Shown here: one piece after another, positions 20,394 to 26,676 of the stretch
Layout of the letters: the number at the start of each line of letters is the position of its first letter
Position numbering within the stretch: the first letter of the stretch is position 1
Origin: Acidobacteriota bacterium
Lineage (GTDB): Bacteria > Acidobacteriota > Thermoanaerobaculia > Multivoradales > JAGPDF01
Direction: 5' to 3'
Assembly (NCBI GenBank): GCA_014584695.1
Contig: JACTMI010000027.1
Span: 1 to 64,000, forward strand
DNA: 64,000 nt
Notes under the pieces: model-generated
Told to the model about the DNA's origin: nothing
What the model saw: only the letters and a program-made list of their open reading frames with translations
Databases searched by the model: none
Position numbers and translations under genes: made by a program

Positions 20394-20987
20394 CTATCCC
20401 GGAACCTCGTCCGGCCGCAACGGCTCGGCGTTGAAGCGGTTCATCACGGCCGCGATCCCCTCCTGGATCCAGACCGCGACCGCCGTCGCCGCCCGCTCGA
20501 TCAGAGCCTCGACCGTTTCCTGCTCCGCCGGGGCGAAAGGAGAGAGGACGTACTCGGACAGCTCACCGGCCCAGTCGGACGGCGGCGGGCCGATGCCCAT
20601 CCGGATGCGCGGCACCTCGTCGGTCCGCAGGCTCTCGATCACCGATTCCATTCCGCGGTGGCCCGCCGGGCCGCCCCGTCCCCGCGCCCGCAGCCGGCCG
20701 AGCGGCAGCGCGACCTCGTCGTAGAGGACCAGGATCGAGCCGGCCTCGAGGCCGTAGCGCTCCGCCAGGCAGCGCAATGACGAGCCGCTCCGGTTCATGA
20801 AGGTCTGGGGCTGGCAATAGAGGACGCCGTCGGCCTCCCCAAGTCGGGACCGGCACTCCTCGCGCTCGAGCCGCAGGCCGCGGGCGCCGCAAAGGTGGTC
20901 GATCACCCGGAAGCCGAGATTGTGACGTGTCCCGGCGTAGGCCTCGCCCGGATTGCCGAGACCGGCGACCAGCCGAGAGGGGTTCAG
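20394..20987 (-). CDS. pth: Peptidyl-tRNA hydrolase
   Basis: Releases peptidyl-tRNA that drops off ribosomes. Family signatures are VAGLGNPGEAYAGTRHNLGF (catalytic His), QPQTFMNRSG (Asn) and VLYDEVALPLGRLRARG (Asp), then GPAGHRGMESVI. No ATG, GTG or TTG lies in frame near the proper N terminus. The CTG at 20987-20985 gives (M)NPSRLVAGLGNPG, matches the family start, overlaps the rplY stop as CTGA and follows a GAGGAG ribosome site. Length is then 197 aa, against 194 in E. coli. The gene is otherwise intact. Confidence 0.93.
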   Translation of the reverse strand: MNPSRLVAGLGNPGEAYAGTRHNLGFRVIDHLCGARGLRLEREECRSRLGEADGVLYCQPQTFMNRSGSSLRCLAERYGLEAGSILVLYDEVALPLGRLRARGRGGPAGHRGMESVIESLRTDEVPRIRMGIGPPPSDWAGELSEYVLSPFAPAEQETVEALIERAATAVAVWIQEGIAAVMNRFNAEPLRPDEVPG

Positions 20988-21637
20988 GACTCCTCGGGCT
21001 CCTCGCCCTTGCCCTTCTTGATCACTTCGGGCTCCGCGACCGCGGCGGCCGCGGCGACGGTCTCGGCCGCCTCGACCCGGGCGTGCGAGACCGCGGCGAT
21101 GACCAGGTCGTGCGGCCCGACGTAGGTCACCCCCGCCGGCATCTCGAGGTCCTTCGCCTCGAGGTGGTGCCCGACGCGGACGTCGGTGACATCCACCCGG
21201 ATCTCGTGCGGAATCGCGCCCGGCAGGCACTCGATCTCGAGCTCCCGCGCGACGAAATCGAGCATGCCGCCCTCGGTCTTGACGCCGTAGGCCGTCCCTT
21301 CGAGCACCACGTGGACTCTGACGCGCAGCTTCTGGTCCATCATCACGCGCTGGAAGTCGAGGTGGGTGATCTCGTGGGTCGTCGCGTCCATCTGCAGGTC
21401 GCGCACCATGGCGTGGCGGGACTGCGTGGTGCCCGCCATCTTGAGCAGGAAGATCCGGTTCTCGTGCCCGCCCTGCTTGAACAGCGTGAGCAGCGTCTTC
21501 TTCGGAATCTGGATCGCCACCGGCTCCCGGTCGCCGCCGTAGACCACGGCCGGCACCAGGTCCTGGGCGCGCAAGCGGCCCACCGCGCCTTTGCCGAGAG
21601 CCTCGCGTCGCTGCACTTCGATCGTCACTTCTGACAT
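20984..21637 (-). CDS. rplY: 50S ribosomal protein bL25, long CTC form
   Basis: Binds 5S rRNA and belongs to the general-stress CTC form. The N-terminal bL25 domain (residues ~1-92) has ALGKGAVGRLRAQDLVPAVV, then a TL5-type C-terminal beta domain (residues ~95-185: RVHVVLEGTAYGVKTEGGML, VDVTDVRVGHHLEAKDLEMP). An Ala/Glu/Lys tail follows. ATG at 21637. It sits between prs and pth, as is common, and its TGA overlaps the CTG start proposed for pth. Confidence 0.96.
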   Translation of the reverse strand: MSEVTIEVQRREALGKGAVGRLRAQDLVPAVVYGGDREPVAIQIPKKTLLTLFKQGGHENRIFLLKMAGTTQSRHAMVRDLQMDATTHEITHLDFQRVMMDQKLRVRVHVVLEGTAYGVKTEGGMLDFVARELEIECLPGAIPHEIRVDVTDVRVGHHLEAKDLEMPAGVTYVGPHDLVIAAVSHARVEAAETVAAAAAVAEPEVIKKGKGEEPEES

Positions 21638-22653: not shown

Positions 22654-22728
22654 TGGTTGGGGCGGGAGGATTCGAACCTCCGAATGCGAGATCCAAAGTC
22701 TCGTGCCTTACCACTTGGCGACGCCCCA
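22654..22728 (-). tRNA. tRNA-Gln (anticodon TTG), CCA encoded
   Basis: On the minus strand the acceptor arm TGGGGCG pairs with CGCCCCA, followed by discriminator A and an encoded CCA. The anticodon stem-loop reads CGAGACTTTGGATCTCG, with TTG in the loop, so it decodes CAA and CAG (wobble). The T arm contains GGTTCGAATCC. It sits inside a protein-gene run between spoVG and prs, so it is probably cut out of a longer transcript. Confidence 0.96.
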
Positions 22729-23137: not shown

Positions 23138-24040
23138 TCACTCCTCCCCCTCGATCGGCGCGAAACCGCTCGCTCGACGCCAAGCCGCGCCGCCCAGCGA
23201 GCGCACGCGCAGCCAAGCCGTGCCAGGCGGGAGCAGGGACCCGGCCCTCCGCGCAGTGTCGTCGTCGTCGAAGAGCGCGAAAATCGTCGAGCCGCTGCCG
23301 GACATGCGTACCACGCGCGCTCGAGCTCGAACCAGAGAAGTATATATCCCCTCGAGCTCGGGACGGAGGCGGAAGACCGGCGCCTCCAGGTCGTTGCGCC
23401 CGATCCGTCGCCACGGCACCTCCTCCGGGCCGCGCCGGAGCGCCCGCAGGAAATGCTCGTCCGGGGTGGTCCCGGGGATTCCGCCGAGCGCCGCGAAGGC
23501 GTCCGGAGTCGCCACGCCGAACGACGGGATCGCCAGCCAGGCGGTCCAGTCGGGCTCGGCGTCGGGCAAAGGCACGATCTCGTCGCCGCGGCCGAAGGCC
23601 GCCGCGTAGCCACCGCTCAGGAAGAACGGCACGTCCGCACCCAGGCCGCGCGCCAGCTCCCACAGCTCCCGGTGGGTCGGGCGCACCCCCCAGATCGTCG
23701 CCATCGCCCGCAGCACAGTGGCCGCGTTGGCGCTGCCGCCCCCCAGGCCGCCGCCTGGCGGGATGCGCTTGTGAAGCGCCACACGGACGCCGTCGGTCCG
23801 GCTCCCCCACTGCTCCAGAAAGGCCCGGGCGGCCCGGCGCGCGAGATTGTCGTCGCCCGTCGGGGCCTCGCCTGCGGCGATGGCCAGGTCCACTCCGGGC
23901 CGTCCGGTGCGCTCGATCTCGAGCTGGTCGGCCAGGTCCACGGTCTGGAAGAGCGTTCGCAGTTCGTGATAGCCGTCGGCGCGCCGGCCGACGACCTGCA
24001 GATGGAGGTTCAGCTTGGCGAAACTAGGAAAGGTCGCCAT
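23138..24040 (-). CDS. ispE: 4-diphosphocytidyl-2-C-methyl-D-erythritol kinase
   Basis: GHMP kinase that phosphorylates CDP-ME in the MEP isoprenoid pathway. FAKLNLHLQVVGRRADGYHE opens the protein, KRIPPGGGLGGGSANAATVL is the ATP-binding GHMP signature, and VVRMSGSGSTIFALF is the C-terminal motif. 300 residues is typical. ATG at 24040 overlaps the end of lolB by 17 bp. It sits in the conserved lolB-ispE-(tRNA)-prs-rplY-pth order. Confidence 0.96.
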   Translation of the reverse strand: MATFPSFAKLNLHLQVVGRRADGYHELRTLFQTVDLADQLEIERTGRPGVDLAIAAGEAPTGDDNLARRAARAFLEQWGSRTDGVRVALHKRIPPGGGLGGGSANAATVLRAMATIWGVRPTHRELWELARGLGADVPFFLSGGYAAAFGRGDEIVPLPDAEPDWTAWLAIPSFGVATPDAFAALGGIPGTTPDEHFLRALRRGPEEVPWRRIGRNDLEAPVFRLRPELEGIYTSLVRARARVVRMSGSGSTIFALFDDDDTARRAGSLLPPGTAWLRVRSLGGAAWRRASGFAPIEGEE

Positions 24041-24731
24041 GCTCGCACTCCGGTTCGCCTTCTGGCGCTGGGACCGACCCGGAGCCGCCCGCGGCGATCG
24101 GCTCGCGCGCGCCCTCGCGCCAGCGCACCTGGAGCTGTCCGTCGCGCGAATCCAGGCGGCCGCCGCGGTCGGTGCGCTCCCATCGCACTGCCGGGACGCC
24201 GCCGCGCCAGAGCGTCCAGCGCAGCGGGCCGAGCGCGTCCCGCGACGCCGTCCAACGCCAGCCCCGCTGGTCGCGGAAGTCGACCGCATCGGCGTTGGCT
24301 CCCGACGCGGCGGGAGTCGCGGGGAGGCGGCCGACGAGCACCGCCGGCAGGTCGAGCACCGGCAGCTCCCAGTCGATCCGGGGCAGCCGGAGGCTGGCGC
24401 TCGCGGCCAGCCGGCAGCCCGACCGCGCTCCACCCTCGACGAAACGCGCCCACCCGCCGGCGATCGCGAGACTCCAGAGCGGACGCCCCAACGCATCCGA
24501 CGCGGCGAGCTCGAAGCGATCGGTGTCGACCAGACGCAGCACGAGCCGCACCGTGGTCTCGCGATCCCCTTGCCGGACCTGCGCCCGGTAGAGCCGCTGC
24601 AGGCGCAGGTCGGATTCGGCCAGATTCCAGGCGCCGAGCTCGGTCGACACCGGGGGCGGCGCCGCCGATCGGCAGCCGGAGAGCGCGAGCAGGCCGGCGA
24701 CCGACAGTGCCCCGAGCCCGCCTGGCCTCAG
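24024..24731 (-). CDS. lolB: LolB-like outer-membrane lipoprotein
   Basis: Probably receives lipoproteins from LolA and inserts them into the outer membrane. With CTG at 24731-24729 as start, the N terminus is (M)RPGGLGALSVAGLLALSGC, a textbook lipoprotein signal with a Leu-Ser-Gly-Cys lipobox. No ATG, GTG or TTG is available upstream of the lipobox in this frame. The CTG overlaps the stop of the TPR gene as CTGA and follows GGGAGG at six-base spacing. The mature ~215 residues are beta-rich with alternating Trp/Arg strands, as in LolB, but the match is diffuse. The LolB call rests largely on its place directly before ispE. Confidence 0.72.
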   Translation of the reverse strand: MRPGGLGALSVAGLLALSGCRSAAPPPVSTELGAWNLAESDLRLQRLYRAQVRQGDRETTVRLVLRLVDTDRFELAASDALGRPLWSLAIAGGWARFVEGGARSGCRLAASASLRLPRIDWELPVLDLPAVLVGRLPATPAASGANADAVDFRDQRGWRWTASRDALGPLRWTLWRGGVPAVRWERTDRGGRLDSRDGQLQVRWREGAREPIAAGGSGSVPAPEGEPECEHGDLS

Positions 24732-26614
24732 GAGTTGCCTCCCAGCCGTTCGAGCTTCGCCGCGACGCCTGCGGCCTCGGCGTCGCCGGTCGCCAGCGCC
24801 CGCCGGTAGACCTCGCGCGCCCGCTCGACTTCGCCCGCGGCGACCAGGGCGTCGCCGAGGTGCTCCAGGACCGTGGCGTCCTCGGGTAGGAGGCGCGCGG
24901 CGCGCTCGAGATAGGCGACCGCCTCGGCGGTCCGACCGCTCTTGAAGTAGCCCCAGCCGAGCGAGTCGACGTAGGCGCCGTTGTCGGGATCGATGCGCAC
25001 CGCTTCCCGCACCAGGGCGAGGGCTTCGTCGAGGTTCTCCGAGCGGTCGATCCAGAGATAGCCCAGGTAATTCATCGCCGGCGCGAAGCCGGGCGCGCGC
25101 GCCAGCAGGCTCCGGAACAGCGCCACCGCCTCTTCGATTCGCCCGGTCCGCTCGTAGGCCGAGGCGAGGCGGAAGTGGAGCTCGAGCGACTCGCCGTCGC
25201 GCCGATCGAGACTTTCGAGCAGCGGGATCGAGCGCGCGTAGTCGCCGCGGCGTTGATGCACTTCGGCCACCCGGAGCTCCCCGCCCGGCTGGCCGGCCAG
25301 GTCCGCGAGCTGGGCCTCCGCGTCGGCCTCGCGCCCCTCGGCGAGCAACAGCTCCGCCCGGCGCGCCACCAGCGCCGGGGACGACGAGCCGGCGAGCGCC
25401 TCGATCGCCTCGGCGGCGCGGCCCCGCCCGGCCAGGCTGTCGGCCAGCCACACCGCTCCCTGCTCGCGCAATTCCGCCGCCTCGGCCTGCAGAAGCGCCG
25501 CAGCGACCTCTTCGAGCTCCTCGAACCGCTCGACTCGCAGAAAGAGCCGCCCGCGCTCGAGTCGTGCCCGCGCGGCCTCGTCGGCGCGTCCCGCCGTCTC
25601 GAGCGCAGCGGCGCGGCGCAACAGGACCTCGGCGGCCTCATCCACTCTGCCGAGCCGCTCGAGCGCGCGGGCGTAGAGGTCGCCGATCTGCTCGTTGAGC
25701 GGGGCTTGCCGCGCCAGCGGCTCCAGCCAGCCGCGAGCCGGCTCGAAATTGCCGGCGGCGAGCTCGATCAGCCCGAGCAGCAAGCGTGCCCCGCCGAAGT
25801 CGCGATGCTCCGCGGTGGTGGCCTCGGCGATCCGGCGCGCGGCGTCGAGGTCTCCGGCGAGGTAGAGCGTGTGCGCCAGGCGGCGCCGAACCTCCAGCGA
25901 GCCCGCTTGGTGCTGCGGTGCAGCCGCCAGCAGCGCCGCCGCCTCGGCGTGGCGGCCGAGCTCCGCCAGCAGGTCGGCGAGCTCGAGCCGCCGTCCGAGG
26001 TTCTCCGGCTGCGCGGCGACCAGCTCGCGCTGCAGCTTCTCCGCGTCGGCGTTCCGACCGGTGGCGGCGAGTGCGCGGGCGAGCAGCGTCTCGATCATCG
26101 GCTGGCCGGGCCGCAGCCTGGCCGCCTCGCCGAGCGGACCGACCGCCCGCGCCGACCGCCCGGCCGCCAGGTGGATCTGACCCACCGAGACCAGCGCTTC
26201 GACATCGCCGGGCTCGAGCTCCAGCAGCCGCTCGAAGGCGTCGACCGCCACCTCCGCCGCGCCCGCGACGCGATCGGCCCGGGTCATCTCGATGCGCGCT
26301 TGAACCCGGAGGACGTGCGCCTCCCGCGGCGCCAACCGGTGGGCGGCCGCCGCTTCCTCGGCGGCGCTTTCGAGCCGCCCGGCCCGGAACAGCAGCTCGG
26401 CGAACCCGACGCGAATGAACGGGTCGTCCGGAGCCGCGGCGCGCGCGCGCTGGAACGCCTCGAGCGCGGCGTCGACCTCCCCTTCGGCGGCGAGCAGCTC
26501 CGCCAGGACGAAATCGTAGGCGCCGGAGACGCCGCCCGGCGGCTCCTCCGCGGCCGCTCCGCTCCCCAGGAGCACCGCGAGCACCAGGAGCGGAGCTTGC
26601 CAGCGCTGGCGCAT
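24728..26614 (-). CDS. Secreted or periplasmic TPR protein
   Basis: 628 residues starting MRQRWQAPLLVLAVLLGSGAA, a signal peptide probably cleaved before AEEPPGGV. Nearly all the rest is tandem TPR (about 14 or more units, for example DAALEAFQRARAAAPDDPFI, AVAYLERAARLLPEDATVLE). Some middle units are degenerate and helix-rich. It is likely a periplasmic scaffold, perhaps working with the LolB-like protein it is coupled to; no partner can be named. ATG at 26614 is supported by the divergent gene beginning at 26677. A TATGAT box at 26626-26621 lies so close that the message may be nearly leaderless. Confidence 0.82.
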   Translation of the reverse strand: MRQRWQAPLLVLAVLLGSGAAAEEPPGGVSGAYDFVLAELLAAEGEVDAALEAFQRARAAAPDDPFIRVGFAELLFRAGRLESAAEEAAAAHRLAPREAHVLRVQARIEMTRADRVAGAAEVAVDAFERLLELEPGDVEALVSVGQIHLAAGRSARAVGPLGEAARLRPGQPMIETLLARALAATGRNADAEKLQRELVAAQPENLGRRLELADLLAELGRHAEAAALLAAAPQHQAGSLEVRRRLAHTLYLAGDLDAARRIAEATTAEHRDFGGARLLLGLIELAAGNFEPARGWLEPLARQAPLNEQIGDLYARALERLGRVDEAAEVLLRRAAALETAGRADEAARARLERGRLFLRVERFEELEEVAAALLQAEAAELREQGAVWLADSLAGRGRAAEAIEALAGSSSPALVARRAELLLAEGREADAEAQLADLAGQPGGELRVAEVHQRRGDYARSIPLLESLDRRDGESLELHFRLASAYERTGRIEEAVALFRSLLARAPGFAPAMNYLGYLWIDRSENLDEALALVREAVRIDPDNGAYVDSLGWGYFKSGRTAEAVAYLERAARLLPEDATVLEHLGDALVAAGEVERAREVYRRALATGDAEAAGVAAKLERLGGNS

Positions 26615-26676
26615 GCCGTCATCATAGCGTCGAACCGTCGATCGGCGTTTCGCCGCTGAGGAGCATTCTGGCCGGC

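Follow-up and report, generated by a model that had tools for sequence, protein, structure and literature searches.

Probable initiation of pth at a CTG codon overlapping the rplY stop in a Thermoanaerobaculia genome, and CTG starts at or beside upstream stops in its relatives

The infC gene starts at a non-canonical codon, AUU or AUC, under autocontrol by IF3, which feeds back on its own synthesis. Termination–reinitiation at overlaps of −4 is described in two papers (PMC6728339, PMC10666635). The second gives ATGA or GTGA as the form of the −4 overlap, with neither CTG nor CUG in its main text, and also describes a −8 overlap, ATGNNTGA. Initiation at CUG has been obtained with a mutant initiator tRNA whose anticodon stem was altered (PMC11497404). 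When RRF is inactivated, 70S ribosomes are reported to stay on the mRNA and to initiate downstream of the stop at non-canonical codons; excess IF3 is reported to lower reinitiation (PMC2268962). Whether 30S or 70S ribosomes reinitiate is described as an open question in PMC12548453. A further paper, PMC4648390, deals with a channel expressed in oocytes and was set aside. No report of conserved CTG junctions was recognised among the open-licence papers listed on CTG or CUG starts or on start codons of Thermoanaerobaculia.

The window analysed here, by which we mean the whole stretch of 64,000 nucleotides, contains a junction at which pth and rplY overlap (Table 1); the genome from which it comes is referred to as G000. 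The upstream gene, rplY, matches TIGR00731 with 151.1 bits against a cut-off of 73.1, has its ATG at MSEVTIEV and ends in EEPEES and the stop. Reading of positions 20980-21004 gave GGC GAG GAG CCC GAG GAG TCC TGA as the minus-strand end of the gene. The pth CTG occupies 20987-20985 and the rplY TGA 20986-20984, the start using the last C of TCC, and the CTGA overlap of the original prediction is thereby confirmed on a mapped stop. The Pth frame opens with CTG AAC CCC TCT CGG CTG GTC GCC GGT CTC GGC AAT CCG and matches PF01195 over its full length (positions 1-183 of 183, E 4e-54, 184.3 bits against 27) and TIGR00447 with 162.8 bits (cut-off 100). In G000 the stretch between 45 and 4 codons ahead of the motif GLGNPG of pth contains no in-frame ATG, GTG or TTG, and the CTG at 20987 is, as had been claimed, the only NTG codon yielding a normal Pth N terminus. 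The GTG at codon 28 is unusable as a start, since it lies past the catalytic Asn and His known from E. coli Pth and would remove both; these residues are retained near the N terminus (LVAGLGNPGEAYAGTRHNLG). A further in-frame CTG, 3 codons before the motif, would begin the protein too far in to give a normal N terminus; in G003 and G007 this codon is not CTG.

Table 1. Features of the two CTG junctions in the window (positions are those of the whole stretch)
Feature	Position	Strand	Basis
pth, peptidyl-tRNA hydrolase, 197 aa from the candidate CTG start	20394..20987	minus	PF01195, TIGR00447
CTGA junction, candidate pth start CTG on rplY stop TGA	20984..20987	minus	sequence read, rplY stop mapped
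rplY/ctc, 50S ribosomal protein bL25, upstream gene	20984..21637	minus	TIGR00731
GAGGAG, 2 nt before CTG, SD-like, also Glu-Glu codons of bL25	20990..20995	minus	sequence read
another GAGGAG, 11 nt from the CTG, likewise read as Glu in bL25	20999..21004	minus	sequence read
GTG, codon 28, first in-frame ATG/GTG/TTG after the pth CTG	20904..20906	minus	sequence read
putative lipoprotein, second candidate CTG-start gene of the window	24024..24731	minus	signal peptide LRPGGLGALSVAGLLALSGC
CTGA junction of the lipoprotein gene with the upstream TPR gene	24728..24731	minus	TPR stop mapped in four genus genomes
TPR-repeat protein gene, upstream partner	24728..26626	minus	coding segment coordinates, true start not set

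The GAGGAG to which the original prediction pointed is real. It is doubled, however, and neither copy is ideally spaced. Since each of them also spells Glu in bL25, the evidence for a Shine–Dalgarno (SD) sequence at pth is weak. CTGA by itself occurs at chance level, with wobble frequencies of 51% for C and 41% for G; what goes beyond chance at pth is the lack of any other start taken together with conservation in relatives. From their translations, the neighbours are presumably a prs-like gene before rplY–pth and rpsF-, rpsR- and rplI-like genes after it. A tRNA-Gln (TTG) lies directly upstream of the prs-like gene (22654-22728, minus). The rpsR-like gene was considered as another CTG-only start and rejected, its junction CTGATG (19882-19879, minus) having a plain ATG one codon after the CTG.

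We consider it highly probable that the CTG at 20987 is the real start of pth, reached by termination–reinitiation at a near-cognate codon on the overlapping stop. Ribosomes ending bL25 at the TGA would remain on the mRNA, slip one base backwards and begin again at the CTG of this −4 junction, using ordinary fMet-tRNA and coupling translation of pth to that of rplY. Start-codon quality would count less than position because the ribosome is already in place. An ATG or GTG at such junctions may have been lost to CTG, aided by GC pressure on the wobble position of the last upstream codon, and the same loss would have been repeated in Thermoanaerobaculia. Initiation at CTG as such is well supported by the comparison of genomes, which shows where the start lies, that CTG is conserved and that relatives have a canonical start in the corresponding position of two of the genes.

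For pth, 70 of the 71 genomes of the order with a match were read (G030 was left out), and 7 of 36 named loci lacked the anchor (L019, L021, L024, L025, L028, L038, L042). Within the genus of G000, CTG was the only NTG codon 45 to 4 codons before GLGNPG in 4/4 genomes. Three of these (G000, G002, G003) have CTGA; the fourth, G001, has TGA-G-CTG. There pth is read in another frame with respect to rplY, and 14 codons ahead of its CTG the frame is closed by a stop. These two junction geometries within one genus argue against both frameshifting and assembly error at pth. An independent CTGA, with an in-frame stop 2 codons before the CTG, was found in G071, a member of another family. Two further genera of the family of G000 differ: g2 has a TTG a few bases past the rplY stop, and in g3 the junction is without any NTG codon, its overlap reading ATA (ATAA, G006/L007) or GTA (GTAA, G007/L005). 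In the locus L093 (G013), a CTGA lies on the rplY stop, with a GTG 3 codons on.

Across the 70 genomes, an ATG, GTG or TTG was present 4-20 codons before the motif in 50, only at 21-45 codons in 8, and not at all in 12. Five of these twelve (G000-G003, G071) have the junction CTG; the other seven (G006, G007, G020, G021, G048, G050, G062) are without CTG and offer only ACG, ATA or GTA. The ACG cases belong to two genera, g11 (G020-G022; L076, L078, L081) and g23 (G048, G050, G062; L359, L360, L367), in which ACGNNTGA or ACGNNTAG stands at a mapped rplY stop, with ACG replacing the ATG of the −8 overlap and no usable ATG, GTG or TTG; in G022 the sole one is a GTG that lies within rplY, 21 codons ahead of the motif. 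ACG at this position can be taken only as suggestive, because the Asp codons of the bL25 tail easily create it. A broader reading, which we put forward tentatively and hold to be improbable on balance, is that in Thermoanaerobaculia the identity of the start codon hardly matters for reinitiation at stop-coupled junctions, the start being set by where it lies with respect to the upstream stop, and that pth drifted through CTG, TTG, ACG, ATA and GTA while its start was being rewritten by changes in rplY, either synonymous ones or ones of the stop codon.

The other CTG case announced for the window, which we took to be the junction at 24731-24728, held up as well. The gene has no Pfam or NCBIfam match, and its position suggests that it may be LolB-like. 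CTGA coincides with the TPR stop in 4/4 genomes of the genus; in G003 an in-frame TAA lies 9 codons before the CTG, and in G002 a GTG 7 codons downstream is a possible alternative start. In both g3 genomes (G006, G007) the CTG follows the mapped TPR stop, TAG, by one base, and in G006 there is also a TTG further on, inside the hydrophobic part.

The original prediction went on to suggest that the organism uses CTG as a start after a stop. We sampled 1,191,428 bases of G000 in 61 pieces, 27% of the genome, in which a codon-usage finder gave 971 genes and 349 close same-strand pairs. Genes were scored as lacking a canonical start when the frame was unbroken and no ATG, GTG or TTG occurred between 25 codons upstream of the preceding gene's stop and 20 codons downstream of it; close gene pairs were the only ones searched. 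In-frame NTGA pairs numbered 83 with G, 64 with A, 46 with C and 13 with T, and not all 83 GTGA need be true starts. Six genes were CTG-only, every one of them at a CTGA. Two are those of the window; the four new ones are glmM (TIGR01455, over cut-off), an hprK-like gene (weak NCBIfam matches only), a nucleotidyltransferase-like gene (PF14907) and a cytochrome c gene (PF00034). The pair first noticed is therefore not the only instance, nor is it explained by upstream starts, since in-frame stops precede the CTG of pth in G001 and of the lipoprotein gene in G003.

Close pairs of another frame or stop lacked a canonical start in 1/143 cases (L180), so that the contrast with 6/46 in-frame CTGA pairs has a P of 0.0009; in-frame ATGA, GTGA and TTGA pairs were left out of this comparison, a start being present in them by definition. 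Reading of the pairs before the counts led to the removal of L118, L120 and L173, in each of which the junction is followed by an in-frame stop; L180 was kept. Against other-phase CTGA pairs (1/61), Fisher's test gave P 0.04, and a stricter count in G000 gave 4/22 in-frame against 2/27 phase-2 CTGA pairs, P 0.39. If CTG and GTG were equally good starts, wobble frequencies would predict at least as many CTGA as GTGA starts; the 6 CTG-only genes seen against 83 in-frame GTGA pairs suggest that CTG is tolerated yet selected against.

Frequencies were also determined in other genomes. In a 400 kb control, the Methylorubrum extorquens megaplasmid, 1/51 in-frame TGA pairs (a doubtful one) lacked a start, 19 of the 51 being CTGA, and 1/6 and 1/16 pairs did so in the other phases. 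G000 was statistically indistinguishable from this control, both in CTGA pairs (P 0.66) and in in-frame TGA pairs as a whole (P 1.0). In G049, of which 400 kb were sampled, 1/51, 1/9 and 1/17 pairs lacked a start by phase; G014 had 0/14, plus 1 TAA pair. An excess of CTG starts specific to the lineage is unproven, since the one unrelated high-GC control showed no difference in frequency. A search from coding onset for genes without any start returned 64/902 in G000, 25/294 in G049 and 5/161 in G014. On reading, these were mostly signal peptides or onset errors, and the search was kept out of the evidence, but it pointed to rnc in G049.

Among the new genes, orthologues were compared for the hprK-like gene and glmM. 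The hprK-like gene has CTGA in G000, and in G001 and G006 the codon aligned with it stands in a GTGA. For glmM, 33 of the 71 genomes with a match were read and 32 were anchored. CTG occurs in G000 only; the other 31/32 anchored genomes have an ATG, GTG or TTG 4-10 codons before FGTDG, GTG being the start in G002 and ATG in G001. The remaining locus, L236 (glmM of G019), has no anchor and carries an in-frame TAA inside the match, either an error or a broken copy.

Two genes of another family, rnc and mpg, were brought up by the 400 kb sample of G049. In genus g23, rnc (TIGR02191) has a CTGA overlap in 21/21 genomes, with the CTG at −10 or −11 from the motif, and ATG, GTG and TTG are absent over 20 codons in all 21. 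The 18-mer ending in the upstream stop is identical in 21/21, while of the 15 codons that lie 7 to 21 codons ahead of this stop 14 show synonymous variation. We take the upstream gene, from its appearance, to encode asparaginyl-tRNA synthetase. Outside g23, 25 rnc loci were read, of which 23 were anchored (L337 and L339 were not), and 23/23 have an ATG, GTG or TTG within 25 codons. mpg (PF02245) of the same genus has CTGA in 17/20 anchored genomes, all 17 with a like upstream gene tail; of the others, two have GTGA (L292, L301), one is unclear, and L306 lacks the anchor. We dropped the idea that GTGA and CTGA had been exchanged in mpg, as the upstream tail of L292 and L301 differs from that of the 17. 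With support from relatives, CTG starts at or next to an upstream stop thus recur in pth, the lipoprotein gene, the hprK-like gene, glmM, rnc and mpg, and in families f1, f7 and f9.

It is also possible, with a rather low probability, that CTG is used by ordinary de novo initiation and that its overlap with a stop is incidental, no coupling being involved. Consistent with this, the CTG may lie 1 nt past the stop (pth of G001; the lipoprotein gene of G006 and G007), and a GAGGAG or GGAGG is found 6-7 nt before the CTG of glmM and of the cytochrome c gene. On the other side, 6/6 CTG-only starts of the sample, in which close pairs alone were searched, sit on the upstream stop, and at the rnc junction of g23 no clear SD was seen by eye in 21 genomes.

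The initiation machinery was also inspected. The initiator tRNA (L156), one among 42 typed tRNAs, has a CAT anticodon, a GGG/CCC stem with its three G-C pairs intact, and C1-A72. A special CAG initiator tRNA was looked for and rejected: none was present in the 42 typed tRNA hits, the one CAG tRNA being an 87-nt Leu tRNA. The FRP and FRGRE motifs of IF3, whose contact residues are known from E. coli, are kept in G000, G002 and G003 (3/6 infC loci aligned; L260, L261 and L262 left out), and ATC is the apparent start codon of infC in three of the genus genomes (L259, L263, L264). Together, the motifs and the ATC start suggest normal discrimination against poor starts, and the ATC would fit autocontrol by IF3. 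Given an ordinary initiator tRNA and IF3 discrimination that apparently works, position rather than an altered factor is the simplest account of initiation at CTG. Counting against our main reading there are the poor SD spacing at pth and, by eye, the want of a clear SD at rnc, the rarity of CTG-only genes beside GTGA pairs, the like frequency in the control megaplasmid, the P of 0.39 in the stricter count, the alternative GTG of the lipoprotein gene in G002, and the combination of normal-looking IF3 discrimination with the lowering of reinitiation by excess IF3 reported in PMC2268962.

Other accounts of the pth junction fare worse than de novo initiation. A bL25–Pth fusion made by programmed ribosomal frameshifting at the rplY stop, with CTG a mere Leu codon, is unlikely. 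Many genomes do have an open Pth frame upstream, as such a fusion would have it, and the rnc junction of g23, C CCC TGA, could in principle allow a −1 slip of the Pro tRNA. The frame of Pth is, however, −1 in G000, G002, G003, G006, G007 and G071 but +1 in G001 and g11; judged by eye, none of the codons that precede the stop (TCC, CCC, GAC or GCC) allows re-pairing at the pth junctions; and the relatives of the hprK-like gene and glmM start with a plain GTG or ATG at the same place. Less likely still is a start of pth at an in-frame ATG, GTG or TTG inside rplY, giving a longer N terminus. The 278-aa frame running from GTG 21230 through rplY is the sole ORF based on ATG, GTG or TTG that is offered for Pth, and the GTG of G022 would serve in the same way. 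None lies within 45 codons in G000, however, and relatives contradict such a start: in G001, G071, G021, G020 and G050 the frame is interrupted by a stop 10 to 23 codons ahead of the motif, and from that stop up to 4 codons before the motif ATG, GTG and TTG are all absent. An assembly or base-calling error at the start codon is extremely improbable, for although the genomes are largely draft assemblies, the same CTG occurs in separate assemblies of different species (pth 4/4, lipoprotein gene 4/4, rnc 21/21).

Reinitiation at the CTG of pth thus remains the reading that we favour. Core genes that retain CTG across genera, pth and rnc among them, would provide natural material on how strict start-codon choice is in reinitiation as against de novo initiation; here the 30S and 70S models may diverge. 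Gene finders limited to ATG, GTG and TTG misplace or truncate CTG-start genes of this kind.

As with infC, a core gene is kept on a near-cognate codon; the CTG cases differ in comprising various genes with no known feedback. CUG would be paired by fMet-tRNA in the P site here as in the mutant initiator tRNA system of PMC11497404, but here the three G-C pairs are intact. The −8 overlap ATGNNTGA has its counterpart in pth of g11 and of three g23 genomes, where ACGNNTGA or ACGNNTAG changes the ATG to ACG, a candidate start. The closest likeness is to termination–reinitiation at −4 junctions of the ATGA and GTGA type: in both, the start shares bases with the upstream stop and the downstream gene lies in the −1 frame, but here ATG, GTG and TTG are absent and the start would be a CTG conserved within genera.
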